Below are positions 31,474 to 55,551 of a DNA stretch of 64,000 nt, piece after piece. The notes beneath the pieces were generated by a model. That model did not search any database, was not told the origin of the DNA, and saw only the letters and a list, made by a program, of their open reading frames with translations. The stretch lies in contig OZ037771.1 in the NCBI GenBank assembly GCA_964035545.1, forward strand, positions 8,852,408 through 8,916,407, in the 5' to 3' direction. The translations under genes were made by a program, and so were the position numbers. Source of the DNA: Bugula neritina. Its lineage: Eukaryota > Bryozoa > Gymnolaemata > Cheilostomatida > Bugulidae. Within the stretch, counting starts at the first letter, position 1; every line of letters begins with the position of its first letter.

Positions 31474-34400
31474 TACAATACACCTATATAATACATGTAT
31501 ACAATAACATATACAATACATATATACAATACACAATATACACACATATGACGTACATACACACATATGACATACACACATATCATGTACATACACACAT
31601 ATAACATACACACATATCATGTACATACACACATATAACATACACACATATCACATACATACACACATATAACATACACACATATCACGTACATACACAC
31701 ATATAACATACACACATATCATGTACAGACGTATTAATAGCCAGATATTTACAGTTAGGGTGTAGAAACTTACATCTCATGCACCTGATTAGGATAGCTG
31801 TGTTGGCACAGGGCATGGCCGTCACTATGAGTAACAAACACAGCGGGGATATTAATCAACTTCGATGCTGATTCTAAATGGAAAATAAAAGACAATTATA
31901 CTATAACTGCATAGCTTCGGCCTAAAAGCATTACACATGGTTGAAGCGAATCTCCCAGATTCACTAACTGTAACACTAAACATGAGATAGACGAGTAGAG
32001 AGATTACTAGTTGAAATGTAAAACATGTGTTGTTTAAAGAATTCATTTCTTCTATTATGTTTCTGTATGCTACTGTAATACAAGCGCAGTGCAATTATAA
32101 TAATGGCATAGTGCAAGTATAGTACAGGTATAGTGCAAGTATAGTACAGGTATAGTGCAAGTATAGTACAGGTATAGTGCAAGTACAGCACAGGTATAGT
32201 GCAAGTATAGTACAGGTATAGTGCAAGTATAGTACAGGTATAGTGCAAGAACAAAGATAGTGTAAGTACAATACAAATGCACTGTAAGCATATCGTTATT
32301 ATACTGTAATCTAGCATATATTTGCACCATATGTAATACTTACTGCTGGTACATGTACAATACACACAGTGTAAGTAAAATGTACACGTACTCAACTTAC
32401 CGTTATCTGAATTCATATGCAGCAAACTGTCTTCATAATTGAATACGATAACGGCACTATAGCCACTTCTCTGTGCATTTAACACCTAGAAATAAAAAGC
32501 AATGATATATGGGTATAATAAGCAAGGGTGACAACCCTTCACTTATAGGGTATGTGTGTTGGGGAATGGTATGTGTGTGTTGGGGGATGGTATGTGTGTT
32601 GGGGGATGGTATGTGTGTGTTGGGGGATGATATGTGTTAGGGATGGGATATGCATATTATAATGCAGTGAGAGGTGAGAGCTCTGGTGTTTACAAGGTTG
32701 AGCTAATGGCACATATATTTAATATAATATGGTTATTGGCTGAAGGAGCTGCAGCAGGGGAATGCTGTACTGGTTGATCTTTGGACTGATGGGAGATAAA
32801 GATAAAGATAAAGACATGGATGAGTAAAGTGTTAGACGTGGGCAGGTGTAATACAATGCATGACCAAGTAATTCTTACTACTTTACTTTTCCCACCAATT
32901 CTTGTATATTATTAGAAATTGTTAGAAACTCAGGGTAATAATATGAGAGTCTACATTCCTGCTTCCTGATCAACAGTGAGTGTGTAGTAAAACAGTGAGT
33001 GAGTAGTAAAACAGTGAGTGAGTAGTATAACAGTGATTGTGTAGTATAACTGTGAGTGTGTAGTATAACTGTGAGTGTGTAGTATAACAGTGAGTGTGTA
33101 GTATAACTTTGAGTGAGTAGTATAACTGTGAGTGTGTAGTATAACTGTGAGTGTGTAGTATAACTGTGAGTGTGTAGTATAACAGTGAGTGTGTAGTATA
33201 ACTGTGAGTGTGTAGTATAACTGTGAGTGTGTAGTATAACTGTGAGTGTGTAGTATTACAGTGAGTGTGTAGTATTACAGTGAGTGAGTAGTATAACACT
33301 GAATCAGTTTCATAGATAATATGATAACCTAATGATCTAATAATATACATTCAGTCCACAGCCCGCGACACATGAGTACATGCACCATTAGAGTGAGATA
33401 TAAAAATTGACATCTTATTCACACAAACTGAAACTCTCATACTTCTGGCTTTATAACAAGTTTAATATGTACTGCATCATATAGCACTAAGACACACTGC
33501 ACAATATGGAGGAAAGTATTGCAGTTATCATAATTTAAAATTCCTAGCAGTCACAGAGGTTCAACTATGCCAACTTAGTTCTGAAAACAAAACAGAAAAA
33601 AGTGGGAAGGTTAGCAAAGCTTTCATTAACACCAAAACCGTAGGCTATTTTCTATACTAAACAGAGTATTTATTGCGGAGTGGGGCAACTCCCCACCGAA
33701 TCTTCCAGCTAGTTAGCCTGGCAACACTCACCTTAGTGACAAAACTACAACTTGTTCGATAACTGGTTAATCCTTTGGTTGATCTTTTGACTATAGCAAT
33801 CCATGGGAGATTTTGTGGAGAGTAAACGGCTGGAGATGGTGGTGGAGAGATGGTGGAACATGCGTCCAGGGGTTCAGCTTGGTGCAGCAAACCCTGTATG
33901 AGATTAGAATCAGTTCTGTAGAATACCTTTACAGTTCACTTATATTCTTGAAATAATTAGCAGTCATTGGCCGCTGTACATTTCATGCTTTTATAATTAA
34001 TCAACATTTTACTCCTATTTCAGAATAAAGAATTTGATTGGATCCCGAAATAGTGGGCGTATGCAAGATATTTTTAAATTATAGTTAATATTAAAATAGT
34101 AAATTCATGCCAGCCATTTTACATTACATCCTCCCGCTACTCGAACAGGACAAAGCGGAGATAGGTGAGACATTTTACATTACATTACGCTGAGTTATTA
34201 CTTTGCTGAACTGAGTCAAGTGATATTTTTCAGTGTAAAAAAGTGTTTTGGTGAAAACAATTGGAGAAAAAAACAAATATGTGAATCTGCATGAAAAAAA
34301 TCACCTGAGAACAAAATGTGTAATTCTAGAGCAAAGAAACCGTGTCATTTGAATACTAGCACAATTACAAGATGGCTACTAGAGTAGTTACTGTGAGGTA

Positions 34401-35200: not shown

Positions 35201-36179
35201 TGCAGAGGAATTCCGCCAGTCATTTGCAGATAACTGTAAATGTCAAACAATACCAATTTCAAAAGAGTATAGACAATGGCAGCTAAATGGAATTTGTACA
35301 AAAGCCTAATCCTATGTACTTGATACAAAAATTTCTTGATATATTTTGAACTTGTTACTTATTGCTAATAATATGTTTAAGCCTAGGTATTTAATTTTTG
35401 AAAAATAATCATTATATGAACATTTATTATGGACTGGTATACTTATTAGTAATTATCTTTAATGACATTATTGATTATTCAAAATTCCAATTATTATCAA
35501 ACAGTTATAAGAATACTATTATTATACAGTTTAGACTGCATAGTTTTAAGTTCAGGTAATTACTATGATAATCACAATGAAATATGAATATAATATCAGT
35601 CATATTACTTTTACTAATATAAACAATAAATATTATGTCTAGCAGGAATAATAACATAATATTATTTAGTATATTAATAGCAATAGTATTTGTTATACAG
35701 ACCAATATTAGTGTTAATAGTTATACAGGTATATGCTATAGTTAGTGTTATTCCTTACAAATTGAACCACTGTTATACTTACATTATAGCCCATAGGCTA
35801 TAGTTATATAGTAATAGTATCACTTTACTATAAGTATAATTTATACTCATACCTATGCTGTTGTCTGTTAGTGTTATACTACTTATAGTAATATTAATAG
35901 TTATAGGTATAACTAATAACTAGAAATAAAAATATTAGTAAATGCTATACGATTAATATCGTTGTTACATTTTGTGAGTTTCCAATAGACAAATACAATA
36001 GTTATACTCATAGTAAACTCAGACTATAATAAAGTATTCCATCCAGTTTTACTGTGACTACGAGCATAAGAAGTCGTGAACAACTATTAGCATTACTAAT
36101 ACTATATTGTTATTGCTGTATAGAAAGAGTGATACTTATATTAACAGTAACACTAATAGTAATTATTAAATTAACAAAT
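35201..36179. promoter_or_regulatory. Upstream region of the RING gene, AT-rich, no motif assigned
   Basis: The sequence immediately 5' of the RING gene start up to the E element LTR. It is strongly AT-rich with degenerate TATACTTA/AGTATAACTA-like repeats. I see no clear TATA box at a sensible distance and no coding exon. The promoter must lie here or in E. Confidence 0.4.
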
Positions 36180-36584
36180 TGTTACCTGCAAGTGCAAATT
36201 AATATGAGAGTCAAACTCAAAACAAATAACGGAGACTAGCAGTAACTTATAATAATGATTATAATAATAATTATAATACGAATAATAATATATCGACAGC
36301 CCCAAGCTGTCACCGTGACCTCCAAACCACCCCTTAGTCACCCCAATCTCCACCCGTGATCTGCCCAGCAAATCACCGTATTCGCCCAGAATACAATGAC
36401 TAGAAACTTGAATTTGCTAAACTCTCTAATAGATATAAACGTTCTCAGTCGAACACTGTCACACGATTGATAGAGGCTTTTGTTTTGCAGCGCAGCACGA
36501 GGAGAAGTCCTTGACCCCCTGCTGTGTACCTAAGCACTCTATCTTGCTGCGCCGCTAACGGCATCGGCATACTTACAGCCCACA
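36180..36584 (-). repeat. 3' LTR of element E
   Basis: TGTTACCTGC to CAGCCCACA (plus sense), 405 bp; partner at 41068-41469. Confidence 0.9.
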
Positions 36585-36609
36585 TCTCCCCTAGCTTCTT
36601 ACAAAGCTA

Positions 36610-39600
36610 CTAGGGAGACGCCACGACCTCTGGCCAATCAACATAATCAGCCAAGTACGCAGGTCGCAGCCGCACACGTTGCGGCCGTCCATGATGGAGC
36701 AGCGGCACATCTGCATTCTCGCTCTCCTCAGCATCAACTCCAACCTGTTCGGTGGGGCGTTCTGGACACCTTACACCATTCACATCAGCATCGGGTTGGG
36801 CTGGGTCTTCCCGAATAGCATACTGACCCGCATTGGCCTCCTCGCCATGCTCCTCGCTCAACGCTAACAGCAGATCCCCTGGAGGCCCAGCATAGGGTAT
36901 ATGCTGATCATCAACACGAGCAGAGAGACAACCCTGATGGCGCCTTCCACCGTGCTGAGCAAGCTCTCCACCATGGCGACGCTTTCGCACGTCTTTAACA
37001 TGCCGTGGTACCCCATTCACACACACTGTGTGTCTTGATACAACCCCGGTGACCTCACTGAGTGCCCACTGCCTGGTGCACGAGGGTGTTGGTGGCTTCA
37101 GCCAGACTTCATCGCCAATGGCGAAGTTACAGTCACCACAAACGCCAGCTTCTGTGGTATTAATATCAAATGGTACCCGCCAAGGGTATCGAAAGAGCAC
37201 GTTAGAAGGCACCGAACCTTCATCTGCGTCCTTCCTGGGTGTCACATTATACCAGAATGTGGCTTCTTCGGGAGAAATCCCCCCTCTCTCCGCAATCCTT
37301 TTGATTGTCCGGTGGTTTCTCTCTACAATCCCGTTGCCGCTCGGGGCGTAAGCGGCTCTGAATCGAAGAGATATTCCCCACTCGTCAGCAAACTCCTCAA
37401 CAGATGCTGACCTGAATGCCATGGAGTTGTCCAAGAGCAACTCTTCACATGGCCCTCGCTCAACCACAACGCTGCGCAATTGAGCAACAATTTTTTCTGC
37501 AGACTCACTCTGAAGACGTCGCCAGATGGCCAGTCGCGACGGACCACAGTCGACCATCGACAGAAACAGTCTGCCATCGTAGTGGGTTACATCAATCGCA
37601 ACTCTCTGCCAATTTCCTTCTACTGACAAGCTTCCTGTCGGGACAATGTTCTCAGACCTTAAGGCGGGGTCGACCCTCTGGCATGTCTCACACCCAGCCA
37701 ACTCACGCTTCACTTGCTCTCTGGACAGATCTCTACGAATTTGTCGAGCAAGGTAAAGCGTCCGATCAACGCCTAAATGATGAGGCAGGTGCGCCGCCCA
37801 AATGGCATCTTCCACACTTTCCCCTGTTGAAAGTGCTGCAGTCACCTGCATGTCGGTGCTGCCAAGTCCACGGCTCCCAAGCCACTGCTTAGCCACCCTA
37901 GTCATGCAATCAGCTTTGTTTTCTGCCGTCGGCACAAAACGAACTGATATTTCAAGGTCGAACTCGGTGATCGTGTCTCGGATTACACCCAAACGACGCT
38001 TTATGAGCATCTCTGCAGCACTCTTTGTTCTTACGCGACTACGAGCGTCAACAGTGTTTCCCATCCAGTTGACGACCGTGAGCGAGTCGATTGCTAGCGT
38101 GAAGGTTTTAAATCCCCACGTGACCGCCAGGTTGATTCCTCTAGCCACAACCTCCAACTCGGCAACATTGATATGGGAATGAACGGACTCCTTCCGTAGC
38201 CATGACGCATCCTCTACAACATTGCCATCTACCTCCAGGACCACGCCTATCCCTATGGAGCTAGCATCTGTCCACACTGTAACAGATCCCCCTGGATTCA
38301 TTCGCCAGCACCCCCGCACAGGGTCCTCTCGCTTAGCTCTGTTCAGCAACTCTGCAGCCAGATTGCTGACAGCATTTCCAACAGGAGCATCCCAACCCCC
38401 ACCACATCCTAATCGTTTGAGGAAGCTGCAGTGCATGCGGAGCCATCCAGCCACCGGATAGTGACCGACCAACCGACCACAAAGGGAGAAGAGGCCACGC
38501 TTTGTGAGGCTTTTTGGCTTCAAGTGGATCTCTGAGAGGGCTGTTGCCCTCATCATTCGTAGTTCTCCGCGACTGTCGCTTTTAAGGGCAATTCCCAACA
38601 GTCGACCTCCATCAAGACTTTCCGGCTCTTTAGTCTCGAGCCCATACTTGGCTAGATGCTTTCGTACTTCCTCAGCACCGACAACAGGCTCCTGCACCAC
38701 TATGTCATCAATGTAGTGGTCCGTTGCCCGACGAACCCGGTCGTCCATCGACAGTACTTTACCAAGAATCGAAGTCATAATTCTGGGAGCGCACGACAGT
38801 CCAAAACCGAGCCGAGTCAGGGCGTAGTGCACCCCCTTATGTCTAACGACCTGGTACTTCCACAGATCTTTGGCTATGTGAATCTGAAAATAGGCTGACT
38901 TCAGATCCACAACTCGGAGGTTACCTTTCAACTGTCTCCACTTTCTAATCTTTTCACTACACACCGCAACCTTGTCATCGCCAGTGTGAGATTCCACGTA
39001 GTTGTTCAGCTCACGGTAGTTCATGACCGGTCGCACCTTGTCCTTAGTTGGCTGGAACACTGCAAGCAAAGGGATAACCCCTTCAACTGGGCCATCCCAT
39101 CGCTTTAACCAACCCTTGGAGATCCAGCTCTCCAGCTCTGCGCAGTAGCGTTCATGAATCTGAGGCGCCTGAGTACACCTGTACTCTGACACACGAGTTT
39201 GGAGCTTTGATGGAGACTCCCCGGTCCACCGCCAACTGACGGTCCATCGACTATTGTCGAAATTGGCCACGAAATCGGGATCCTCCACTCGCAGCGCCCC
39301 CAAGTCACTGCTACGACTATCATTGACAGCTGTCGTAGCCTCACAGGCCAGGCCTGGGCTGGAAACTTTCTGACGAGGAAAGTCACAGCAGCCAGCTGAA
39401 TTCTGCTTTCCCCAGACAACTGAGTATCGCGAGTCAGAGCCTCTCCTGACAGTCACACCTCCCATATGGTCGATGGCATCACCACCAATGAAGCAATCAA
39501 CGCCAAGGTTCCCCAACTCGCTCATGACAGGAGCCGAGACACTGAAGCAGTGTCCCTGCAGTCCAACGGTAACTCGGCAAGTGCCCTCCACGTGAGAGGC

Positions 39601-39831
39601 ACTGCCATCAGCCGTTAATAACGGCCGGCCTGCTTTGAGCCGTTTCCCACCAACCACCCGCGGACTTACCAGAGTCCGCTCGCTTCCAGTGTCGACAAGA
39701 CACGAGAAACAACAGCCGTTCAGCACTGCCTGAATGACGGGCATACGGCTACTTGTGGTAGTCCTACTAATTGCCCCAGATAGCGCCAAGCTATCCCGCG
39801 GTACGCATGCACCGCTCAGAACCTCGCTCAT
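36610..39831 (-). CDS. pol: Element E pol polyprotein, intact (1073 aa)
   Basis: ATG at 39831, 33 nt after the gag stop and in the -1 frame relative to gag. Domains: aspartic protease (CLVDTGSERTLV, about 45-55), RT with VRPVMNYRELNNYV, LRVVDLKSAYFQIHI and the catalytic YIDDIVV, RNase H with WTDASSIGIGV, NVAELEVVARG and AIDSLTVV, and integrase with an H-H-C-C zinc region (LPHHLGVD to CETC). The integrase triad is D in AIDVTHYDG, D in LLLDNSMAF and E in GNGIVERNHR. No stop or frameshift occurs across all domains, which with near-identical LTRs suggests a young and possibly active copy. How pol is expressed downstream of gag is not obvious. Confidence 0.92.
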   Translation of the reverse strand: MSEVLSGACVPRDSLALSGAISRTTTSSRMPVIQAVLNGCCFSCLVDTGSERTLVSPRVVGGKRLKAGRPLLTADGSASHVEGTCRVTVGLQGHCFSVSAPVMSELGNLGVDCFIGGDAIDHMGGVTVRRGSDSRYSVVWGKQNSAGCCDFPRQKVSSPGLACEATTAVNDSRSSDLGALRVEDPDFVANFDNSRWTVSWRWTGESPSKLQTRVSEYRCTQAPQIHERYCAELESWISKGWLKRWDGPVEGVIPLLAVFQPTKDKVRPVMNYRELNNYVESHTGDDKVAVCSEKIRKWRQLKGNLRVVDLKSAYFQIHIAKDLWKYQVVRHKGVHYALTRLGFGLSCAPRIMTSILGKVLSMDDRVRRATDHYIDDIVVQEPVVGAEEVRKHLAKYGLETKEPESLDGGRLLGIALKSDSRGELRMMRATALSEIHLKPKSLTKRGLFSLCGRLVGHYPVAGWLRMHCSFLKRLGCGGGWDAPVGNAVSNLAAELLNRAKREDPVRGCWRMNPGGSVTVWTDASSIGIGVVLEVDGNVVEDASWLRKESVHSHINVAELEVVARGINLAVTWGFKTFTLAIDSLTVVNWMGNTVDARSRVRTKSAAEMLIKRRLGVIRDTITEFDLEISVRFVPTAENKADCMTRVAKQWLGSRGLGSTDMQVTAALSTGESVEDAIWAAHLPHHLGVDRTLYLARQIRRDLSREQVKRELAGCETCQRVDPALRSENIVPTGSLSVEGNWQRVAIDVTHYDGRLFLSMVDCGPSRLAIWRRLQSESAEKIVAQLRSVVVERGPCEELLLDNSMAFRSASVEEFADEWGISLRFRAAYAPSGNGIVERNHRTIKRIAERGGISPEEATFWYNVTPRKDADEGSVPSNVLFRYPWRVPFDINTTEAGVCGDCNFAIGDEVWLKPPTPSCTRQWALSEVTGVVSRHTVCVNGVPRHVKDVRKRRHGGELAQHGGRRHQGCLSARVDDQHIPYAGPPGDLLLALSEEHGEEANAGQYAIREDPAQPDADVNGVRCPERPTEQVGVDAEESENADVPLLHHGRPQRVRLRPAYLADYVDWPEVVASP

Positions 39832-39863
39832 CGATAAAGAGCAAGGCCCTCGGCGGTTAACGC

Positions 39864-40868
39864 CTAAACTGTGGTATCCATGTTGGAGGATGCGGCGCCC
39901 CGAGTTGCATCCTCCGCCTGAAAACCCGGCTGGTTACCTTCCTGCCCTGCAGCTACTGCAGGCGGTTTCGGGCAGTCCCGAACCCAGTGGTCGATGCCTC
40001 CGCACCGGAAGCATCCAGCTCTCTTCCCAGAAGAGTTTCTCACGGGCCGCTTGTTGAATGAAGCCCGCCTGCTCTCGGTGCAATCCTTTACCTGGTGTGC
40101 ACCGCCACACCGATAGCAGGAACTGGCACCTGACTGCTGCTGCGCTCTTCCAGAAGCAGCAGCGACTTCCCCCGACTGTTGCCCAGTTCTAGAACGGCGT
40201 GCAACAGCCCTGCGCGAGACCACTCTTTCTCGCACACGTGCCAAAACTGACCCAAAGTCGGCCTTGTAGGCACTTTCGAGGGTTACTGCCCACTCGTAGA
40301 CAGAGGCCGGCAAGCCTTCATAAAACTGAGCTCGAAAACTCAGATCATTGCAGGTCATGCCGACTCGCCCACCGAACCGCTCCAAGCGGTCCAGGTACAC
40401 GTCAATCGTGTCTCCGTCTTCCATGCGGCAGGTAATGAACCTACGCCATGCTTCCTGCATAGGCATGGCGTACTCGGCCACCAAGGCCGCTTTTACTACA
40501 TCCCATTGGGATGCTTCAGCCACACGCATCCTGCTGTAGACACGAGCAGCATTGCCACCCAACATGTAGATGAGGATTTCCGTTGGGGCAATCTGTTCTA
40601 CCTCGCAGAGTCCCTCAAACTCCCTGATCAACGCAGTGACATCTACACTGCCATCGCCAGTAAACTGGGGCGTGGCTTGTCGAATTCTCGACAGAATCGG
40701 GCCCTTTGCCTGATTGAGGATGCTAGCCAAGACCCTCGCATCCAACAGAACTGGAGCTGCAAGCCCAGTGCCCGCAGATGATGGCCCGCCAAGGTCGGAA
40801 GCGCCACCAACTGCCGAACTCTCCCCAGGAGAGTCCTCGCCTTCAATTTTCTCTCCTTTCCGTGACAT
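39864..40868 (-). CDS. gag: Element E gag, two zinc knuckles (334 aa)
   Basis: Start taken at the ATG at 40868 (MSRKGEK), since the frame further upstream lacks an ATG in good position. An acidic Gly/Ser-rich leader is followed by a helical capsid-like region (ATPQFTGDGSVDVTALIREF, QEAWRRFITCRMEDGDTIDVYLDRL, FYEGLPASVYEWA). Then come a basic stretch and two CCHC knuckles, CYRCGGAHQVKDC and CFRCGGIDHWVRDC. It would form the particle and bind element RNA. Only its general plan resembles the A/B gag, which has one knuckle. Confidence 0.9.
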   Translation of the reverse strand: MSRKGEKIEGEDSPGESSAVGGASDLGGPSSAGTGLAAPVLLDARVLASILNQAKGPILSRIRQATPQFTGDGSVDVTALIREFEGLCEVEQIAPTEILIYMLGGNAARVYSRMRVAEASQWDVVKAALVAEYAMPMQEAWRRFITCRMEDGDTIDVYLDRLERFGGRVGMTCNDLSFRAQFYEGLPASVYEWAVTLESAYKADFGSVLARVRERVVSRRAVARRSRTGQQSGEVAAASGRAQQQSGASSCYRCGGAHQVKDCTESRRASFNKRPVRNSSGKRAGCFRCGGIDHWVRDCPKPPAVAAGQEGNQPGFQAEDATRGAASSNMDTTV

Positions 40869-40984
40869 TCCGTTCTCCACAGTCAACAAGTATGAGTAAT
40901 AAACTATTTGACTGAGAACCAGAATGCACAAGCTTACTAACTACGTTTAAGTAGTAGTAAGAAACAGCAGTAATATTATGATTA

Positions 40985-41067
40985 TATCACGTTGTTACCA
41001 ACCATAAAGTAATAATAGTAATAATAGTAATAATAGCAATAATAATGATAATGCTGCCGAAATAGCT
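40985..41067. repeat. (AAT/AGT)n-rich leader of element E
   Basis: Imperfect AATAGT/AATAATGAT repeats between the 5' LTR and gag. This may have displaced or obscured the primer site; TTGGTAACAACG (minus sense) lies at its far edge. Confidence 0.5.
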
Positions 41068-41469
41068 TGTTACCTGCAAGTGCAAATTAATATGAGAGTC
41101 AAACTCAAAACAAATAACGGAGACTAGCAGTAACTTATAATAATGATTATAATAATAATTATAATACGAATAATAATATATCGACAGCCGCAAGCTGTCA
41201 CCGTGACCTCCAAACCACCCCTTAGTCACCCCAATCTCCACCCGTGATCTGCCCAGCAAATCACCGTATTCGCCCAGAATACAATGACCAGAAACTTGAA
41301 TTTGCTAAACTCTCTAATAGATATAAACGTTCTCAGTCGAACACTGTCACACGATTGATAGAGGCTTTTGTTTTGCAGCGCAGCACGAGAAGTCCTTGAC
41401 CCCCTGCTGTGTACCTAAGCACTCTATCTTGCTGCGCCGCTAACGGCATCGGCATACTTACAGCCCACA
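41068..41469 (-). repeat. 5' LTR of element E
   Basis: Same ends as 36180-36584, 402 bp; lacks one GAG triplet of the partner. Confidence 0.9.
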
Positions 41470-41568: not shown

Positions 41569-41921
41569 TGTAGTAATTTGTGCAATTACTGAGCGCGAGT
41601 TATTTACTTGCGTATAGTTAGCTGGTTATTCTGCTAGCAATTACTAGGGTAGCTGTCGAGTAATTATATTTATTATCCACAATAAAGCATAAAACAAACA
41701 TCACATCAAATTATCCTATACATCAGTCAACTACTAACACATGTTACTACTTCAAGCCTCCGCTTACAACAACGTGATATAATGTTAATAACCCGGGAAG
41801 TGTCACGTGAATCGGAAGCATATCTTCCGGAGCTGCTAATTGGTTGCTACATAAGGGTCTAAGTATTCCAAGAGTAGAGAGAGGGCGATTCCCGTATTTG
41901 TACTTTGCACTACTCACTACA
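41569..41921 (-). repeat. 3' LTR of A1
   Basis: TGTAGTAATTTG to CACTACA (plus sense), 353 bp. Confidence 0.92.
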
Positions 41922-41953
41922 CCGCCCCCCCCAGCAGAAAGCCCTACTTTCTG
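41922..41953 (-). promoter_or_regulatory. Purine tract and conserved hairpin before the A1 3' LTR
   Basis: Minus-sense hairpin CAGAAAG-TAGGG-CTTTCTG (41935-41953), then CTGGGGGGGGCGG up to the LTR. The same hairpin and tract are present in A2, B1 and B2. Confidence 0.6.
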
Positions 41954-42215: not shown

Positions 42216-43273
42216 TCATTGGGTGGACTCTGATTCTTGTAGCGATCGTGCTCTGTGTCGAGCCTGTCGGGCATGTGGCCGCCTCTTCAGTCGCCCCACT
42301 GAGTCCTTCAACTGGTATAGACCTGTCGTCGTATCCAGCAGGTCAGGGGCAAGTTGTGTGAACTCGGCTTGTAGTCTTACAAGCCGCTCTTCTACATTAG
42401 CCAGCTGGCTAGGCCTTGGTGGGGTTGTAGTAGTCTCCGTTAGAGGGGGTATTGTTGTTTCTTCTACTTCTGGGGTGTTGCTAGGGTTGACGGGGGTAGG
42501 AGGCGGGCCCTGAACCATAGGGGACTTATGGCGGGCGGATAGCAGCAGTACGTGGAACCCTGACGCTAGTGCGGCCAGGGTGATAGCCTTCCTGATGACT
42601 GGCTTGATGGCATCCAGGTATAGGGGGAAACTGTCTTCATCAACAGTGTGGTTTTCTCCGGCGAAGCAGCTCAGCTTATGTACTGTCACGGGATACGGGT
42701 AGACGTCGTGGAACCCGCAGGGACAGAAGTGGAGTAGGAAATGGGCGTCTACATGTAAACGCAGGGAGCGGTGTGACGGGCACTCCTCAAAGCAGACCTG
42801 GCAGGTTCGGTGGGGTCCACTGGGTCCCCAGGCTTCTTCAATTCTCCTTTCCGTCGTGGGTGACACCCAACGGTGTCGTCGACGGAGCACCACGGGTATG
42901 CCATTCTCCATTACAGGCTCTTCTTCCATAGGCAGAGAGGTTGGCTGGTCCCGTGACCGGGAGGTGGTCACTCGAGTGTGATCTGAAAGAGTAGCAGTGT
43001 TAAAGATTATACACTGAGGTACCGTCGGCGTGTACAGCCTGACCGGTACTCTGTTCAGTTACACTCGTGAGATTCAGGCTAATGAATAGTTGATGGAGAA
43101 CACACTCGCTATGACAGATTATTTAAAATCAAAGTCGACGTGTATTCCCACCACTGTTTATCATTATCGAATCTCCAGCTCGCTAGCTATCGTAGCTAAA
43201 GCTGACTGATGCAGTCTAGTTATCGTACCAAAAACATAATTAACTCACCCTTCGATCCAGAATAGTAAGACAT
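42216..43273 (-). CDS. A1 ORF3: spliced zinc-finger protein (263 aa)
   Basis: Exon 1 is 43273-43249 (eight codons plus one base, beginning MSY), donor G-GTGAGT. The intron is 266 nt, with acceptor CTCTTTCAG. Exon 2 is 42982-42216. Together they make 264 codons in one frame. Features: basic RRRHRWVSPTTERRIEEAW; a C2H2 finger C69-x2-C72-x12-H85-x3-H89; a second cluster C95-x-C97-x12-H110-x3-C114 (CPCG to LSC); a helix-prone AITLAALASGFHVLLL; a Pro/Thr-rich linker; and a C-terminal helix with VEERLVRLQ. Exon 1 starts 24 nt after the pol stop. It sits where env lies in errantiviruses but has no signal peptide or clear membrane anchor, so a nucleic-acid-binding accessory role is inferred. Splicing is predicted only from sites and phase. 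Confidence 0.75.
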
Positions 43274-43296: not shown

Positions 43297-44881
43297 TTAC
43301 TGTTTACGGGCACGTCTACTCTCGACTGCATCAACATAGGAAAAGACCGGACAGCGTGGTTGTGAAACGTGACTAGGGCTTTTAACTTCTAGCGGATGAA
43401 TCTCGTGTGAGATTCCGCCGAGGCAAAAGTTAAGATTTTCGTGGTGATCACAACTCCCACGGCTCTTTGCCTGTTTTCCCATGCGAGGCCTCTCTAGACT
43501 TTCGTTACTGCCGCTTATACCGCGGTCACGTACACAGTCTCTGAGACACGCTGGAAGTTGCCTAGTGTGTGGTCCTGATCCTACGTTGGTATCTCCTTGC
43601 GGAGCCCCTCCCACGAGGGGTTTTTGCACTTCCGGACCTGTTTCTGGTTCCGGAAGTGGTGATGATGGCAGGCTTGACGTTGGGGGCGGTGGGCGCACTT
43701 TCAAGGACGGAAGTGGCCTTTCTCGCCTCGCCAAGTCTTCCTGACGTGTCATGGAGGTGTTTCCGGCCAGGTTGACAGTCTCCGCCTGCCGAGACCTTCT
43801 CGCACAATGCGTCTGCCGCCCCGCTTCACCAGGGAGACGGCTATGCTTGTTGGTCTGGCAGACTTTGCACCGTCTCACTCTGCGTCGGATATCCCGTTCC
43901 ATGTTGGGCCAGTACCACCGGAGTTGTAGCTTGGTGACCACCCCTTGGACTCCTCCGTGAGTCTCCTCGTGGGTGTCTTGTATCAACTTCCGGCGGATGG
44001 CAGCTGGGCAGACAACCCTCTTCCTGGCTGGCTGTCTGCTGTTGGCGGCCAAGGTCATGGTCAGCAGACCATCTGGCCCGACCCGCAGAGAGCTCCAACG
44101 TTGACAGTACACAGTACAGCCGTAACTCGGCGCATCCCTGTCGCCGTTGTGTACTGCTGGGTCGTCGCCCTTCCTGTTTCGCTCGGTACACGTCGGCTAC
44201 CACCCCAGGAAGGCATTCCTGGAGCTTCGGCAGCTCCCTAACGTTACCAGCCCATACAGGTTTGGCGCGGAGGCTCTGGACAGCCTCCGGGGGCGTGTCA
44301 GCCCTCTGTTGGAGTAGCTGAGCAGGGGCGGTCCTCGCCGCCCGTGGTACCTCACGACAGCCTGCTCTATTTAGGCGGGCTCCGTGGTCTGTGTGGCGGA
44401 ACGCCTCACTGTACCCATGTGGCAACCTAGCCATAGACTGGCGCTTCCCGTTGCCTGTGCAGCCACGCGTCCCTGGAGGAGGGGAGGCGTGGGTTGGGAT
44501 GGTCCTCCGCCCTCGAGACGGGCTCTGCTGACGACCTTCCGTCGTAGCTCCCGACGACGGCCCAATGGCTTCCTCCTGGACAGGATGGAAGCGACCCAGC
44601 ATGGATCTGGGTGGTAGGTCTACTGTCTCTGAGAAGGGGTTGACACACTGCACTGAGATCTCTCCTTGTCCCGTAAGCCGGCTAAAGCTATGGGCAAGTT
44701 GGACTCTCGAGTGCGTACTTTCGACAACTCCCAACTTAGAGGTTTGGCCACCGTCTACCTTGCAGCGGACAGTAGCCCGGGAGTGGCCTGGTATAGTACA
44801 GCTCCGTACTACCTGCACTGCTCCCGCTAGAGGACGACCAAACTTATCGACACAAGCGAGCTCCTTGCCGCCCATGATCAT
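43297..44881 (-). pseudogene. A1 pol remnant: linkers, integrase zinc region, conserved C-terminus
   Basis: Starts with the post-protease segment VDKFGRPLAGAVQVV, passes directly into pre-integrase TPPEAVQSLRA (RT and RNase H absent), then the integrase zinc region RWYWPNMERDIRRRVRRCKVCQTNKHSR. It then jumps past the D,D,E core to the Pro-rich tail. An 8-bp duplication near 44108 shifts the frame. The last ~60 residues (CDHHENLNFCLGG, then FSYVDAVESRRARKQ) are shared with B1, so this end is under constraint or recently copied. Confidence 0.8.
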
Positions 44882-44908
44882 CGCAGATTTACTGAAATCG
44901 ATGCGACA

Positions 44909-45562
44909 TCAGTGTCGTTGTAAGAATGGCATCCCGAGGATAGCATCCTCGTTGAGCTGCCCGACGATAAACGTCTCTTGGATGGCCTGGTTACGGACGT
45001 AACCAGTTAGCTCAATAATGCCGTAGAAGGGAATGCACGACCCGTCTGCCAGGGTGCCATGATCCCCCTCATACGGTGCCAACCCGTCCTTGACCTTAGC
45101 GCTGAGGGTGTCAAAGAACTGACGGCTAAGGAGGTTGGTGGTGCAGCCTGAGTCCAGGAGGAAGTTGGCATGCTTGCCGGCTAGCTTTCCTGGCAGGAAG
45201 TAGCTACTTCCGTGTGGCTGCAGTTGTGTGTGCCGTGGTTGCACCTCCCTCGCTGTGGGTCGAGGGGTCCACGGTTGGCGGCGACTATTGACCAGCTGCC
45301 GAGGTTGGGGCGGTACGCCTTGTGGCGCCTGTACTGTTTCCCTCGCAGGCTCTGTGGTCAACCGTCTGCCGGCTCCGTGTTGGTGCTGGAGTGGCGTAGA
45401 GGACCCAGGCGGCGAGTGGCTTGAGCCTACTTGCCGCGGGGGTCGCCACTTCACAGCATCTCCGCGCGGCGCCCAGCGGGGCGACAGACGCGCGGGCCTC
45501 CCTGGGTGATTCACAGACGGCCCGCAGGAGGTGGGAACATCCGCGAGCCGTGGTAGTTTAAC
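44909..45562 (-). CDS. A1 protease region, reached by -1 frameshift from gag
   Basis: In the -1 frame from the GTTAAAC heptamer: a Pro/Arg-rich linker, then an aspartic protease with FLLDSGCTTNLLSRQFF, LADGSCIPFYGIIELTG, ETFIVGQLNEDAILGMPFL. A TGA after FLQRH (44909-44911), where B elements have Gly, ends it. The same TGA is in element C. The protease could therefore still be made as a Gag-PR fusion that stops there. Confidence 0.75.
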   Translation of the reverse strand, partial: VKLPRLADVPTSCGPSVNHPGRPARLSPRWAPRGDAVKWRPPRQVGSSHSPPGSSTPLQHQHGAGRRLTTEPARETVQAPQGVPPQPRQLVNSRRQPWTPRPTAREVQPRHTQLQPHGSSYFLPGKLAGKHANFLLDSGCTTNLLSRQFFDTLSAKVKDGLAPYEGDHGTLADGSCIPFYGIIELTGYVRNQAIQETFIVGQLNEDAILGMPFLQRH

Positions 45563-46461
45563 CCTTGTGGGAGCTGAGGGCAGTTCCTCTGGAAATGTCC
45601 TGGCCTTCCGCATTCCCAGCAGAAGTGGTGCCCCATGCCTGGTGATTGTACCTGCGGCCCGCAAGGCTCACGGGCAGTATCTACCTGGCTTGGGGAAGCT
45701 AATGTGGTGACCAGTTTATCTAGCATGTCAGTCATCTGTGCGATTTTTGACGCTAGTGACATCTGGTTCACATTAGCCACCGCGGAGGGTTCCGCGTTTG
45801 GTTCGGCGTGAGCAGTAGTGTGCTCCGTGGTCACCTGGCGGGAGGCCACGCGGTTGCGGTGCATATGAGTCGCCAAGAGGTAGGCTTCTCCCACCGCAAG
45901 TGCATCTTCGACCGTGGTGACTCCCCTCGCTTGGAGTTGATGGTGGAGCCACAAGTCGTTGATGGACTGCACGAAGGCATCATAAGTATACCTCTCACGG
46001 TGTACTGGAGGCAGATCGCGGAACGCGATCTGCGCTAGTGGGTACACCGTGGCAGCGTGCTCTTCTAGCGACGTGTGAGGATCACGCCGCATCCTTTGTA
46101 GACGGGCCCGCGCATCTATGGGAGAGATGCCAAACCGGGCCCGCAGAGAAGCAAAGATTCCGTCTATGTCAGGTCCCGCTCCGTACGGCTTAGCTTTGCC
46201 CGTCAGCGCCATCCTGAGCTTGAGCAACGCCACCCTTGGTGGCCACTCTGAAATCTCCATCACATCTTGGAATTCTTGGATAAACTGCTCCACCGCTTCT
46301 TCGCCTGTGAAGGTGGGCGCCTTCAGCCGGTATCTGTCTTCACCATGCTCTCTAAGAATTCTCACTTCTTCATCTAACACCACTGGTTCCACAGGTATAT
46401 CAACATTATCTCTCTCACCTTCATTCAGTGGAATGGGTAGCTCCGTGCCGTCTTCTGCCAT
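45511..46461 (-). CDS. gag: A1 gag (316 aa)
   Basis: ATG at 46461 (MAEDGTELP), 17 nt past the primer site; an earlier in-frame TTG at 46476 is not a likely start. Capsid-like core: DRYRLKAPTFTGEEAVEQFI, WPPRVALLKLRMALTGKAKPY, IFASLRARFGISPIDARARLQ, AFRDLPPVHRERYTYDAFV, VTTVEDALAVGEAYLLA. One knuckle, CWECGRPGHFQRNC, near the C-terminus. No stops or frameshifts. Closely related to the gag of B1 and B2 in the core but with a different N-terminus. Confidence 0.9.
   Translation of the reverse strand: MAEDGTELPIPLNEGERDNVDIPVEPVVLDEEVRILREHGEDRYRLKAPTFTGEEAVEQFIQEFQDVMEISEWPPRVALLKLRMALTGKAKPYGAGPDIDGIFASLRARFGISPIDARARLQRMRRDPHTSLEEHAATVYPLAQIAFRDLPPVHRERYTYDAFVQSINDLWLHHQLQARGVTTVEDALAVGEAYLLATHMHRNRVASRQVTTEHTTAHAEPNAEPSAVANVNQMSLASKIAQMTDMLDKLVTTLASPSQVDTAREPCGPQVQSPGMGHHFCWECGRPGHFQRNCPQLPQGLNYHGSRMFPPPAGRL
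45517..45562 (-). promoter_or_regulatory. -1 ribosomal frameshift signal, A1
   Basis: In gag frame GGG TTA AAC: slippery heptamer G TTA AAC (45556-45562). A 5-nt spacer (TACCA) separates it from a stem between ACGGCTCGCGG and CCTGCGGGCCGT. A U-G pair replaces a C-G pair of the B2 stem, so pairing is kept. Confidence 0.75.
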
Positions 46462-46477
46462 GACTGCTATACGCAAG

Positions 46478-46492
46478 ATCCCACCGCTGCCA
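46478..46492 (-). other. Primer-binding site of A1, tRNA-Leu type
   Basis: Minus-sense TGGCAGCGGTGGGAT, four bases after the 5' LTR. Confidence 0.7.
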
Positions 46493-46496
46493 CCAC

Positions 46497-46849
46497 TGTA
46501 GTAATTTGTGCAATTACTGAGCGTGAGTTATTTACTTGCGTATAGTTAGCTGGTTATTCTGCTAGCAATTACTAGGGTAGCTGTCGAGTAATTATATTTA
46601 TTATCCACAATAAAGCATAAAACAAACATCACATCAAATTATCCTATACATCAGTCAACTACTAACACATGTTACTACTTCAAGCCTCCGCTTACAACAA
46701 CGTGATATAATGTTAATAACCGGGGAAGTGTCACGTGAATCGGAAGCATATCTTCCGGAGCTGCTAATTGGTTGCTACATAAGGGTCTGAGTATTCCAAG
46801 AGTAGAGAGAGGGCGATTCCCGTATTTGTACTTTGCACTACTCACTACA
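46497..46849 (-). repeat. 5' LTR of A1
   Basis: 353 bp, three differences from 41569-41921; followed in minus sense by GTGG and the primer site. Confidence 0.92.
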
Positions 46850-48106
46850 CTATTCCTAGAGTAAAAGTTAATCTTATATTTATACTTATACAGTTTCAGT
46901 TTGACTTTAGTCTGCGAGTTTTGGTTTGTTGATTACAGATTGAAGTAGAGATTAAGAGCTTAAGTTTACTGTCTAGCTTTACTAGCACTACTACTAGTAG
47001 TAATAGTACTACTAGTAACACTAACAATAACTGTGTCCGCTACTGTTAGTGTTTAGAAGTTTACCATAAAATTCAACTATTAGTATTACATTTACAATTA
47101 CTGATTAGTATTAGTACTATTAGTATTACTAATACTAATACTAATAGTAATAGTAATACTATCAGTATCACAGTATCAGTATGGGTATCATTATGAACTT
47201 AAAGCAATTGTAAAAGTTGAAGTGTAACTGTAAGACTAAGTCTAAAATTAGGGTTAGAATAATAAATTATTTACCTTTTTAAAATATGAATATGATGAAT
47301 TATAAATATGAATAAGTTATAGGTAATAAGTTAGTTAATAAGTATAACTAAACCCAATCCAATGTGAATATCAATATGACTATGAATATTGATATTCATA
47401 TTAAATATCAATTATCAAATTGAATGAATATGAATTCAATTTATAAATGAGGTAAACTACAAATAACTAATAACTAATAAGTATAACTGAATAAGTATAA
47501 TAATAAAGTATAGCTATAACTATAACTCAGTATAAGTGAGTACTATTAGTCTAACTCAATAAGTATAAATTAATAAATAATTATAAGACTAAAAGTATAA
47601 GTTATTAGGTATACGTATAACTAAAGTATAACCTAAATTTAAAGTTAAACTAAAACAGTAAACTACAAGTATAGCATTAACAGTATGAGTATAACTAATA
47701 CTATTACTATTAGTATTAGTATTACTATCACTATGAGTATGAGTATGGCTAAAAACTATAAGTATAAGCCATAACTATAAGTATAAGTATTAGTATAACT
47801 ATAAACAACTATAAACTTATATAAGTATAACATATTATTATAATAATAATATTAATATGTTATATGTATCAGTATTACATAAATACATTAATATAAGTCT
47901 AAGACTCTTAGTCTTACTTTTAGTAAGAGTAAGTGTAACTCACTAACTCACTAAGTGACTAACACTAACACTAACAGTAACTGTAAGTGTAAGCCTAAGC
48001 CCTAAGCCTAAGGTCTAAGGACAAGGTCCTAAACGACTAAACCAAAATTGATCAGCTTCCCAATTAAAACTCAACTATACTAACACAGCATAGTAGAGTA
48101 ATATAT
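46850..48106. other. AT-rich intergenic sequence with degenerate TAGTAT-type repeats
   Basis: Between A1 and B1. Long runs of AGTATAACTA, TAATACTAATAG and GTAAGTGTAAG-like units at about 46970-47180, 47420-47800 and 47900-48010. No gene seen. Confidence 0.55.
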
Positions 48107-48411
48107 TGTTATGTTTTTCAGATTTAGGGTTGATATGCTATCCAGAGAGTCTAATTACTTGCTACAGAACTGCACCAGGATAAGTCGAGTGAACGAGTAT
48201 ATATTTTACACACAATAATACATTATAAAACGATACAATACATCTGACAATTTACACATCTAATCTATTCAGCACTCTAACTTCGACTGAGTTAGCAGCG
48301 GGAAACTATAATTGCTGCTAACTATCAAATACGCTAATTGGCTATCCATTGTTCCGGGTCAATTACGCGACCCTACATGTTGTGCTGCTGGTAGTTTCAC
48401 GAACCACCACA
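48107..48411 (-). repeat. 3' LTR of B1
   Basis: TGTTATGTTTTTCAG to GAACCACCACA, 305 bp. Only a few differences from 56604-56908. Confidence 0.9.
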
Positions 48412-48838: not shown

Positions 48839-49772
48839 TCACAGGAGGCGTTCCTCTACTGTGGCCAGGCGAACTGGGTCTGGGGACGGTGTCCGTCTGC
48901 GGCGCAAAGGGGGACTGGGGGACCTGGTTCGTCTCTTCGTCGGGGTAGGAGAGATCTCTCCTTCTTCTGGATAGGCAAACTCTTCGGGGGTGTACGTAAT
49001 CTGAGGGCGGTCAGATACCAACGGGGATTGTTGTCTGGCGTTGTCTAATACACGTTGGAACCCCGATGTCAGGACGGCTAACAGCATTGCCTTCTTCACT
49101 AGGGGTCGTATAAGGGTGAGGAACTCCGGGTAGAGCTTAGCGTCGACCACGTAGTTCTCTCCAGAGAAACAGCCCGTCGCTCGATGTCTGGTGACGGGGT
49201 AGGGATAAACATCGTTGTATCCGCAGGGGCAGAATGTGAGTAGGAGATGAGCATTGACATGTAACTTCAAGGAGGGGTGAGAGGCACATTCTTCACCACA
49301 ATTCTGGCATCTCGTCCGTCCTCTGGACCCCCAGGCCGTTTCTATTTCTTCCTCTGTTTCTGGAGACACCCACCGCCAACGGCGGCGTAGTGACTCAGGC
49401 CGGTCGCCACTAGCATACTCCTCAGGATGCGGAGCGGGAAGTGCTCTATCCCGTACCCTGGTTGTAGCGGGTCGAGTGTAATCTGAAAAAGTTTCAACAG
49501 TGTTAATACAGTGCACTGCCGTGTTGTCAGCTTGAATAGCTTGGCAACTCCTAATTCAGTTACCTCGTAGAGATTTATGGTAGCGAATAGTCAGATAGAA
49601 CACGTATTGCAATGAGATTATAAAAATCTCCAAGTCAAACTGAGTTCTTACTACGGTATTTCACTAACCTATCTCCAGCTCGATTGACTCAGTGAGTCAG
49701 AGCTGAGCGATGCAATCTAGTTTCGCGTTAAGTTATAGTTAACTCACCCCACGATCTGTTGTCGTAAGACAT
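48839..49772 (-). CDS. B1 ORF3: spliced zinc-finger protein (222 aa to first stop)
   Basis: Exon 1 49772-49748 (25 nt, beginning MSY), donor G-GTGAGT; intron 265 nt with acceptor ACTTTTTCAG; exon 2 49482-48839. It is homologous to A1 ORF3 throughout: RWRWVSPETEEEIETAW, finger C-x2-C-x12-H-x3-H (CQNCGEEC to HVNAH), second cluster (CPCGYNDVYPYPVTRH). A TGA at 48839-48841 cuts the C-terminal helix. The frame beyond it stays open and A-like to about 48695, and B2 has the same TGA. The second cluster's last Cys is one residue further along than in A1. Upstream, exon 1 begins 25 nt after the pol stop. Confidence 0.72.
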
Positions 49773-49796: not shown

Positions 49797-52700
49797 CTAC
49801 TGCTTAGGAACACGTCTACTCCTGACTGCATCAGCGTATGAAAAGATCGAGCAACAGGGTTGGGGTGCGTGATTAAGACTTTGTGCACTCGGCGGATGAA
49901 TTTTGTTTCTATTTCCGCCGATACAAAAGTTGATATTTCCGTGGTGTTGACAACTCCCACATTTGCTCGATACTTTTCTCGTACGGTTTTCCCCTGGACT
50001 TTCATACACGCCGCTTTTAACGCAGTCGCATATGAAGTCTTTCAAGTATGCGGGGGGTTGTCTCGTACGCTGTCCCCTTTTTAGGGGGGGTGACACGCTT
50101 GCCGGTTCGTTAGTAGGGGCCTCTAATGGCGTCTCTACTTCACCGTTAGCGGTCACCTCTTCTTGTTCTCCGGACGGAGCCCCTCCCTCCGTGGGGGTTT
50201 GCACTTCCGGAACCGGTTCGGTTTCTGGAAGTGATGGAATTAGACTTGGCGGTGGCAGACACGCTTCCGTTGGCAAAAGCTGCCGTTCCTCTCTCACCAA
50301 GTTTTCCTCCTGCGGTATGACCACTTCGTATTCAGGTCCATGCCGCCGTCGCCCGCGCGTTGTTGTCTGCCTTCTGGGCTCCAACAACGGGGGGGCTTCT
50401 CCCACTGCGTCGGGGCTAGCCCAATACGGTTTCAAGCGAGACTCATTCTGGATAGACACCTGTCCTGAGCGCTCAATCTTGTACGTATGATTGGGCATAG
50501 CCATTGACGATCACGTAGGGTCCTACGAACTTAGGCTTTAGTTTATCAGCCTGTCCGCGACGCCTACGGTAATTGACCATCCACACCTTATCTCCCGTTT
50601 GGTAGAGAGGTGGTTCATCGGAATCTTCGTGCCGCACCTTCCACTGCTGTTCGCGCAGCATATCGTGTGCGGCCTTCATCCGTTCCACTAGTTCACTGGC
50701 ATACTCGTGAACCGAGTTGTCTTGCTCTGGAACGTGGTAGGTGAGATGGTCAGGGACACGAGTCTCTCTCCCGAGCATCAAGAGGTTTGGGGTCTCACCA
50801 GTACTGGTGTGTGTGGTGCTACGGTATGCACGCATGACTTGCGGCAGCACCGTATCCCATTCCTCTTGGCCTCGTCCAAGGAGGAGACTCCGGAGCGCAT
50901 CACCTAGCATCCGGTTGTTGCGCTCCACCACCCCGTTACCTTGAGGGTGGTAGGGGGTGGTCCGGCTCTGATTTACTCCCCAGAGGTGGCAAAGGTCGCT
51001 CATCAGTTGAGACTGAAATTGAGCGCCTTGATCAGAGTGTATCTGTTCGGGAAGCCCAAAATAACAGAATACATGTTGGTCTAGTGCCCTGGCCACTGTT
51101 GGGGCTGACGCATCTGGGATAGCCAGAGCATCCGCCCACCTAGTAAAGTGGTCGGTTAGTACTAGGATCCAATTATTGCCTCTGGGGGTCAGGGGCATTG
51201 GTCCGACCAGGTCTACAGCGACTACTTGCCAGGGCCTACCAGCATATAGCCTCCGCCGTCCTGCTTCACCAGGGGGGCGGCTATGCTTACTGGCCTGGCA
51301 GATCTCACACTGTTTGACTCTGAGTCGGACGTCACGCTCCATTTGTGGCCAATACCACCGGAGTCGTAATTCGGATATCACTCTCTTGACCCCTGCGTGG
51401 GCCTGTTTGTGAGTATCCCAAATCAACTCACGGCGGATGGCCGTGGGGCAGACTACCCTCTTCCTCTCCGGGTGTCTGCCGCTGGCGGCTAGGGAGATGG
51501 TTAGTAACCCATCCTGCCCGATCCGTAGCGAGTCCCAACGCTGACAGTATAGCCGGAACTCGGCGCATCCCTGTCGTATGCGTTCCTCGCTGGGTCGTCG
51601 CCCTTCCCTTTTGGCCCGATATATGTCTGCCACGACTCCAGGCAGCTCTTCTTGGAGCTTCTTCAGCTCTCGAACATTACCGGCCAGTACAGGGTTGGCG
51701 CGGAGGTTTTGTACACCCTCCGGGGACTCATCAACTCCCTGCCTGAGTTGACCCTGGTCCCAGTCAAACGGTGCTCCGTGGTGAGCCAGCGTCTCCAACT
51801 CGCATCGCGGGGGACCTCCATCCCTCCTCTCGATGTTGAGACACTGTTTGCAACCTCCGTCAGGTCGGCGACTCAACCCATCCGCATTGCTGTGTCTCTT
51901 GCCCGGTCGATGTTCGATCCGGTATGAGAATTCAGCTAGGATTTCGAGCCACCGGGCGACCTGACTAGAGGGCTCTGCTCTCTTGCACAACCAGATCAGC
52001 GAGGCATGATCCGTACGCAGCCGGAACTTCCTGCCATATAGGTATGGTCTGAAGTGCTTCACTGACTTGATTACTGCCAGCAGCTCCTTGCGGGTAGTGC
52101 AGTAGTTTCGTTCAGTGGGTGAGAGAGACTTGCTGTAGTAGGCTACTACTACTTCTCGGCCTTCCTGCACTTGCGACAGCACAGCGCCAACATTTTGGTC
52201 ACTGGCGTCAGTGTCGAGGATGTACTCCAGAGTGGGGTCTGGGTAGGCCAAGATGGGCGCCGTTAGTAGGCAGCCCTTGAGGCGGTCGAACGCTCCTTGT
52301 TCGACTGGGGTCCACTGCCACGTCACTCCCTTTGCGGTGAGCCGGTTTAACGGCTGTGCTATGCCCGCAAAGTCTGGTATGTATTGTCTGTAATACCCTA
52401 CCAGCCCCAAGAAAACCCGGAGTCCGGTCAAGTCTTGGGGGGTGACCCAGTCTTCAATTGCCCGGACCTTCTCGGGATCCGTTGCCACGCCGTTTCGACC
52501 GACAACGTGCCCCAGGTACTTAACCTCTGGCTGCAATAGAGCGCACTTAGAAGGTTTGAGCTTAAGACCGGCACCTCGGAGTCTCTCAAAGACCTCCTGC
52601 AGACGACTGACATGTGTCTCGAAGTCTGGGGAGATCACGATGACATCATCGAGGTAGATCAGCAGTGTCTTCCAATGGAGCCCGCTGAGGACTTGCTCCA

Positions 52701-55244: not shown

Positions 55245-55551
55245 TGTTATGATTTTCAGATTTAGGGTTGATATGCTATCCAGAGAGTCTAATTACTTGC
55301 TATAGAACTGCACCAGGATAAGTCGAGTGAACGAGTATATATTTCCCACACAATAATACATTATAAAAATGATACAAATACATCTAACAATTTACACATC
55401 TAGTCTATTCAGCACTCTAACTTCGACTGAGTTAGCAGCGGGAAACTATAATTGCTGCTAACTATTAAACACCCTAATTGGCTATCCATTGTTCCGGGTC
55501 AATTACGCGACCCTACATGTTGTGCTGCTGGTAGCTCCACGAGCCACCACA
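55245..55551 (-). repeat. 5' LTR of B1
   Basis: 307 bp; at least a dozen differences from 48107-48411. The tRNA-Leu-type primer site (TGGCAGCGGTGGGAT, minus sense) adjoins it at about 55226-55240. Confidence 0.88.

Follow-up and report, generated by a model that had tools for sequence, protein, structure and literature searches.

A Spliced Accessory Gene With Putative Zinc Fingers and a Conserved Folded Intron Behind pol in Ty3/Gypsy Retrotransposons of Bugula neritina

Results

LTR Retrotransposons in the Window

The window, i.e., the whole stretch of 64,000 nucleotides analyzed here, is part of chromosome 7 of Bugula neritina, and its minus strand carries the elements A1, A2 (3' part only), B1 and B2 (Table 1). 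Directly inside the 5' LTR of A1 lies a primer binding site that presumably matches the 3' end of a tRNA-Leu. A frame of B1 (50473-54204) shows a weak protease match below the cut-off, followed in order by matches to RVT_1, RNaseH, Integrase_H2C2 and rve. Judged by their LTRs, the primer binding site, the CCHC gag of A1 and the domain order PR-RT-RNaseH-IN of B1, the elements are assigned to the Ty3/Gypsy LTR retrotransposons.

Other repeats were also seen in the window. In a further LTR element (36179-41469; LTRs 98.8% identical), a pol frame of 1107 aa matches DUF7047 (E 1.5e-19), and the interval from this pol frame to the 3' LTR contains no long frame. Repeats of 21 nt extend over about 1.4 kb with long open frames on both strands (28868-30291), an array of 19-nt repeats lies at 32896-33359, and the minus strand at 1330-2334 bears a fragment of a LINE-like endonuclease (Exo_endo_phos_2, E 1.4e-05, barely below the cut-off).

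Table 1. Features of the A and B elements in the window (positions from the first nucleotide of the window).
Feature	Position	Strand	Remarks
A1 5' LTR	46497-46850	-	LTR pair 99.2% identical, ATAG at both flanks
A1 primer binding site	46479-46495	-	TGGTGGCAGCGGTGGGA, directly inside 5' LTR
A1 gag and shortened pol, several frames	43297-46461	-	CCHC, protease and integrase H2C2 matches
A1 gag start, candidate alternative ORF3 first exon	46419-46461	-	ATG + 43 nt to GAAG/GTGAGA
A1 exon 1	43249-43273	-	25 nt, ATG, phase 1
A1 intron	42983-43248	-	266 nt, GTGAGT...TTTCAG, conserved RNA fold
A1 exon 2	42216-42982	-	767 nt, putative zinc-finger/coiled-coil ORF3 protein
Finger 1, C-x2-C-x12-H-x3-H	42741-42803	-	each ligand in 51-53 of 54 rows
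Finger 2, C-x-C-x12-H-x3..5-C	42666-42725	-	each ligand in 51-54 of 54 rows
C-terminal long helix, probable coiled coil, basic end	42222-42407	-	model residues 193-254, block pLDDT 83-96
A1 3' LTR	41569-41922	-	pairs with A1 5' LTR
A2, 3' part of element	61069 to window end	-	
A2 exon 1	62752-62776	-	ATG at 62776
A2 intron	62487-62751	-	265 nt
A2 exon 2	61720-62486	-	
B1 LTRs	55245-55551 and 48107-48411	-	
B1 gag start	55171-55213	-	ATG + 43 nt to GAAG/GTGAGC
B1 exon 1	49748-49772	-	ATG at 49772
B1 intron	49483-49747	-	265 nt, conserved RNA fold (z -2.75)
B1 exon 2	48839-49482	-	shortened by in-frame TAG
B2 LTRs	60118-60423 and 56604-56908	-	
B2 exon 2	57336-57979	-	TAG as in B1; exon 1 and donor deleted

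A Two-Exon Gene Behind pol

A third gene, ORF3, begins with an ATG located 24-25 nt downstream of the pol stop, as read in A1 (pol frame end at 43297, ATG at 43273) and B1. The gene layout proposed in the original prediction, namely a 25-nt ATG exon, a GTGAGT donor, an intron of 265-266 nt, a TTTCAG acceptor and a long exon in matching phase, is present in A1, A2 and B1 in all its parts. The exon lengths given there hold for A1, where 25 and 767 nt add up to 792 nt, a multiple of three that encodes 263 aa, while the 644 nt given for B1 describe a copy truncated by an in-frame TAG. This TAG interrupts the probable coiled coil in both B1 and B2, and the B copies L051 and L052, which lack it, are open to about 260 codons. 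The deletion in B2 was ruled out as a splice, since its junction falls within the intron and does not coincide with GT-AG. A Cys/His-containing pol tail (e.g., 43297-43600 of the window) is kept adjacent to the ORF3 start in the copies of A, B, C and D that were read.

Distribution Across the Genome

When the genome was searched in six frames with the A1 protein, 145 exon-2 homologues were scored among 924 candidates, and about 90 of them were free of internal stops by our own count. The exon-2 homologues exceed chance. They fall into at least four groups, A, B, C and D, instead of the two Gypsy families assumed previously. The intron is non-coding in A, B and C. Family C is about 60% identical and has a first exon of 22 nt with unchanged phase; most of its places contain one TAG, which, in those C copies that were read, coincides with the end typical of the group or lies close to it. 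Group D, only about 30% identical to A, was scored at 143 places among 1000 candidates, and a 25-nt ATG exon precedes GTAAGC in seven of the nine D loci read. The D exon pattern occurs at 248 places with at most one mismatch, compared to nine in the control. The region corresponding to the intron is open, acidic and conserved as protein in D, where it gives frames of 366-387 aa.

At L061 (C1:11751800-11756800, minus strand), a single frame of 1594 aa is open across both Pol, which is B-like, and a D-type ORF3. Since D-type ORF3 is joined here to a B-like pol, recombination between groups is likely.

In family A, matches to gag, protease and the integrase zinc domain were obtained for A1 and L037, but none to RVT or rve. 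Family A is for this reason read as non-autonomous. An older relative (L039) could be aligned across both gaps of A and has only about 80 extra bases at each. The claim that ORF3 is kept even in copies that lost reverse transcriptase and integrase is borne out by A1 and L037, which lack reverse transcriptase and the integrase core and retain the gene. Within the family, dN/dS amounts to 0.18-0.28 for gag, 0.16-0.61 for the pol remnant and 0.13-0.19 for exon 2, the latter between L001, L009, L028 and L040-L043. That ORF3 was kept in A while the borrowable reverse transcriptase and integrase were lost hints at a cis-preferring or family-specific role; gag and protease were kept too.

Intron-Less Genomic Copies Reveal a Local Splice

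Ten genomic copies, four of family A, four of B and two of C, lack the intron exactly to the splice sites. In the A copies L009 and L010, the intron is absent to the base and the gene is flanked by pol and LTR sequence. The A junction pattern finds these two and two more A copies (L033/L038 and L034/L039), the exact B junction pattern finds four copies, and neither pattern has a hit in its control; the C copies are L068 and L069. Splicing of ORF3, as originally predicted, is established by these spliced genomic copies in three families, independently of RNA data. In a tree of exon 2, the intron-less A and B copies occupy five places (L009/L010, L038/L039, L052, L081/L083 and L082), with L009/L010 sharing a clade with the intron-bearing L028; gene conversion could reduce the number of separate loss events. 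The two LTRs of L037, the wider version of L010, are identical over 353 nt, and transposition of a spliced RNA was therefore recent. Because such intron-less copies were transposed, packaging does not strictly depend on the intron.

For group D, the first pattern used to look for spliced copies matched two places, compared to three in the reversed control. Among the D exon pattern matches listed (100 of 248), nine exact places were potential spliced D copies. The one stretch read at such a place is host-gene-like and was rejected as ORF3. A sequence close to ATGATACTCAATACCAAGTTTAGAGC recurs at all nine exact places (L063 and eight similar ones) and perhaps represents a duplicated exon; the frame near the L063-type place read resembles what we take to be a cytochrome c haem lyase.

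A Second First Exon From the gag Start

A1 and B1 have GAAG/GTGAG in common 43 nt past the gag ATG, in phase 1, which coding conservation alone may explain. In the C copy L079 (L085 in its wider version), an LTR, a primer binding site, a leader and the gag ATG with 43 nt are followed by exon 2, in frame and open, and a second LTR downstream is 98.6% identical to the first. This C junction pattern occurs at a single place in the genome. The database protein P0004 (source JGI, no name, on a contig of 5320 bases) starts with MAEEGTELPIPRNE and continues in the exon-2 frame, with an identical junction. In A and B, no genomic place joining the gag donor to exon 2 was found at up to three mismatches. 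Since the 43 nt of gag join exon 2 in L085 and P0004, ORF3 has two alternative 5' exons, and the sequences of the C family and P0004 attest to a subgenomic mRNA of the env/cerv type in addition to the local splice. The local ATG exon may be used by reinitiation after pol or may be a by-product. The ten intron-less copies and the gag-joined L085, 11 spliced places in total, all belong to the 145 scored. A junction in L013/L016, near 46383/44273, was rejected as a splice; the match extends past the gag donor.

The Intron Is a Conserved Folded RNA

Folded as a consensus, 23 introns (A, B, C and two intermediates) give 44 pairs in nine helices, with 96.8% of the cells paired compared to 93.9 in shuffles. 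Two-sided changes were observed in 12 of the 44 pairs (shuffles 8.1, sd 1.4; 4 of 500 reach 12) and in 47 cells (shuffles 18.0, sd 3.2; none of 500; at most 11 with the partners slid), counts that refer to a fold derived from the very alignment tested and to cells that are non-independent events. Standard pair types showed no excess (36 compared to 35.4 in shuffles, with 241 of 500 reaching this value). In the closing helix 1, GAGU of the donor pairs with the pyrimidine tract before the acceptor in 98.9% of the cells; this helix is without two-sided change, and covariation is confined to the inner helices 2-8.

Column shuffling (13 sequences, 60 shuffles) gave a z of -6.65 for the intron, compared to -2.45 for the pol end, -0.24 and -1.20 for parts of exon 2 and 0.28 for the 3' UTR. 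Folds of single sequences reached z values of -3.82 (A1 intron), -2.75 (B1) and -2.91. The corresponding D regions are still strongly folded though coding, with z values of -3.1 to -5.8 at seven of the nine loci considered (L036 and L055-L062; 40 shuffles each), the other two having no recognizable exon 1.

Of 15 chosen pairs, 14 show slower evolution of the intron than of the 3' UTR, by a factor of about 1.6 to 4.6 in 13 of them and of 5.6 in L001-L044, where the UTR alignment is poor; the reverse holds for L046-L050 (intron 0.115, 3' UTR 0.076). In every pair with finite dS, which many distant pairs do not have, the intron is also slower than synonymous exon-2 sites. The ratio of intron K to exon-2 dS is 0.05-0.26, with one pair at 0.48, values that overstate the constraint, as in some pairs the histories of exon 2 and of its flanks seem to differ; one example is the mosaic L047-L051 (pol end 0.046, exon-2 dS 0.93). 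No Rfam family matches the A1 intron at E values up to 1. Taken together, the intron is a conserved folded RNA, and its fold marks the unspliced RNA, since both spliced RNAs lose it.

The ORF3 Protein

Thirteen members from the four groups align across 255 positions. Both sets of metal ligands recognized in the original prediction are conserved, with all eight putative zinc ligands kept, each in 51-54 rows of a 54-row alignment that includes database proteins. The dN/dS comparison of exon 2 proposed along with them agrees with purifying selection on a protein that keeps its ligands: values are 0.04-0.20 in most pairs between lineages, 0.2-0.3 in some and up to 0.57 in pairs of decayed or very close copies, with finite dS in only 11 of 36 pairs in group D. 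Among 35 A copies, single-base variants shared between copies comprise 98 synonymous and 30 non-synonymous changes, compared to 58 synonymous changes, 73 non-synonymous changes and three stops among variants of single copies. This split fits, as expected, selection before insertion and drift afterwards. We conclude that the ORF3 protein is under purifying selection.

A first structure model built on four rows was discarded (pLDDT 37.6). In the second (mean pLDDT 83.3, pTM 0.58), approximately residues 22-160 form a folded part and residues 193-254 a helix. The last 50 residues carry a net charge of +3 to +8 in A, B and C and of +1 to +4 in D. No stretch of 19 residues exceeds 1.56 on the Kyte-Doolittle scale in the 13 members, the maxima of the six D members being 0.29-0.78, and no hydrophobic N-terminal stretch was found. 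By hydrophobicity, the predicted absence of a signal peptide is supported in all 13 and extends to membrane segments. A transmembrane or FAST-like reading was ruled out, as the hydrophobic stretch is not kept in D. Because of its long-helix end and the lack of a membrane segment, ORF3 is not a typical Env.

The best sequence matches among solved structures, the C2H2 fingers of SALL3 (E 0.0039) and ZNF423 (E 0.0043), are weak, and finger 1 alone has the C2H2 ligand spacing C-x2-C-x12-H-x3-H. In Pfam, zf-C2H2 was matched by two of the 13 members (best E 0.0092) and zf-C2H2_4 by three (best E 0.023), the A1 protein having no match at E values up to 1, and the lowest E value of any family was obtained for DUF1192 (0.00043, in two of 13 members). 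NCBIfam gave nothing below an E value of 0.04. A Foldseek search with the second model found no match at E values up to 0.001 in the PDB or the viral library, and its VIA-align rows span the long helix only. The related database proteins have neither a Pfam domain nor a name among the matches listed (120 of 232), and 92 pattern stretches in viral contigs confirmed no relative.

Discussion

A Proposed Role in the Control of Unspliced RNA

In our proposal, ORF3 serves a Ty3/Gypsy lineage as a spliced accessory gene, and its protein would combine zinc fingers with a long helix and a basic end; in the structure model, the C-terminal helix looks fit for self-assembly. Judged by the spliced genomic copies, one mRNA is subgenomic, with the first 14 gag codons joined to exon 2. 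From the other, only the 265-nt intron behind pol is removed, with the local ATG exon leading exon 2. The fold is thus retained solely in RNA that does not use this acceptor, which is the genomic RNA. The protein made from spliced mRNA would act on the unspliced RNA, probably through the intron fold, and hold back splicing, and the RNA would thus reach the cytoplasm for Gag-Pol translation and packaging, in the manner of Rev with the RRE and of CERV in Cer1. An accessory protein that acts in this way on unspliced RNA via the fold, in export or in splicing control, is a proposal to which we give an even chance, with RNA binding, a nuclear site and export as the steps that we infer. The original reading as a nucleic-acid-binding accessory protein is partly supported, and binding itself stays putative.

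A more specific version, held tentatively and with somewhat less confidence, is a Rev/RRE-like export pair that would have arisen independently in bryozoan Ty3/Gypsy elements. The regulator would recognize its own intron, the pairs would be matched within families, and a non-autonomous family would keep its own pair while borrowing reverse transcriptase and integrase. Several observations speak against the proposed mechanism. Intron-less copies were transposed, standard pair types show no excess over shuffles, and A and B yielded no gag-to-exon-2 fossil. Group D keeps the donor, yet its intron region is coding and no spliced D copy was found by the patterns used; no confident fold match to an RNA-binding protein was obtained; and the fold could serve splicing alone, since helix 1 brings the donor together with the tract ahead of the acceptor. 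The fold could be a splicing brake only, which masks both splice sites, with ORF3 acting elsewhere as a nucleic-acid chaperone or as a chromatin-binding protein in the particle or nucleus. We consider this somewhat unlikely. The nearly invariant pairing of helix 1 agrees with it, as does the apparent minority share of spliced copies, which account for at least 11 of the 145 places scored (part of these were read at the junction). However, it is not helix 1 but the inner helices 2-8 that covary, which goes beyond what masking needs.

The best matches among solved structures, SALL3 and ZNF423, are C2H2 transcription factors, and the D form carries an additional acidic N-terminal region. Both would suit a DNA-binding, transcription-factor-like protein that would work at the LTR or influence the choice of target sites, with the fold as a separate packaging signal. 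This appears improbable to us, as the matches are weak and mostly involve finger 1, finger 2 has a different ligand spacing, and RNAs without the fold were packaged. An origin of ORF3 from an envelope or fusogen gene by decay or divergence is suggested by its place and splice logic, which are those of errantiviral env, but with the low hydrophobicity maxima of all 13 members, lowest in the six of group D, and an N-terminus that is not hydrophobic, we regard it as very improbable indeed. The hydrophobic stretch of A also appears, in the model, to sit in helices of the folded part.

Comparison With Known Systems

The env gene of errantiviruses is located behind pol and is expressed from a spliced subgenomic RNA. 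ORF3 resembles it in both respects but has no signal peptide, no membrane segment and no sign of a fusion protein; a signal peptide together with a transmembrane segment was not found by hydrophobicity in the 13 members. HIV Rev contains an arginine-rich helix, in contrast to the putative zinc fingers of ORF3, and the ORF3 intron lies inside the protein's own gene. Both systems have a basic region and self-assembly in common, the latter being predicted for ORF3, and the conserved structured intron RNA expected of a Rev/RRE-like pair is present. They are also alike in having a small protein made from spliced RNA and a folded element in an intron that is kept by unspliced or partly spliced RNA, as far as Rev/RRE is treated in PMC10309623.

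CERV of the C. elegans Ty3/Gypsy element Cer1 is a protein of 517 aa encoded by five exons, with a G-protein-like domain and a Cys-rich loop, its spliced mRNA starts in the gag frame, and its loss blocks the export of genomic RNA (PMC10309623). ORF3 is similar to CERV as a novel spliced protein with a gag-frame start, a Cys-rich putative zinc loop and predicted self-assembly that is not an Env; it differs in that CERV has 517 aa, the G-protein-like domain and five exons, and no conserved structured intron is described in the sections covered (PMC10309623). The junction of a spliced mRNA sharing the gag start was found in C (L079/L085) and for P0004 but not in A or B, and the ligand pattern of ORF3 would correspond to a Cys-rich zinc motif. 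By comparison, sORF2 of the MDG1 group is an accessory ORF of Env-less Gypsy elements that is under selection, like ORF3; unlike ORF3, it is placed before gag, encodes a short transmembrane protein and is presented there with no evidence of splicing (PMC11952523). A short transmembrane protein ahead of gag, of the sORF2/FAST type, is at variance with both the position and the hydrophobicity of ORF3.

Cer1 already provides an example of this kind of gene, in which a Gypsy element carries a spliced gene for a regulator. For the protein, the embedded structured intron, the dual first exons and the phylum, no description was found in the titles and abstract openings retrieved by literature searches.

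Significance

No close relative of ORF3 was found in the libraries searched, and bryozoan elements appear barely described in our searches. Where RNA is absent, spliced genomic copies allow splice maps to be read from DNA alone. Worked cases of how Env-less retrotransposons get their unspliced genomic RNA past splicing are few, CERV of Cer1 being the best we found. The ORF3 system adds another candidate to CERV, one that offers numerous natural copies, fossils of splicing in the genome and a named RNA element, and it raises the sharp question of whether the ORF3 protein binds the intron of its own gene.
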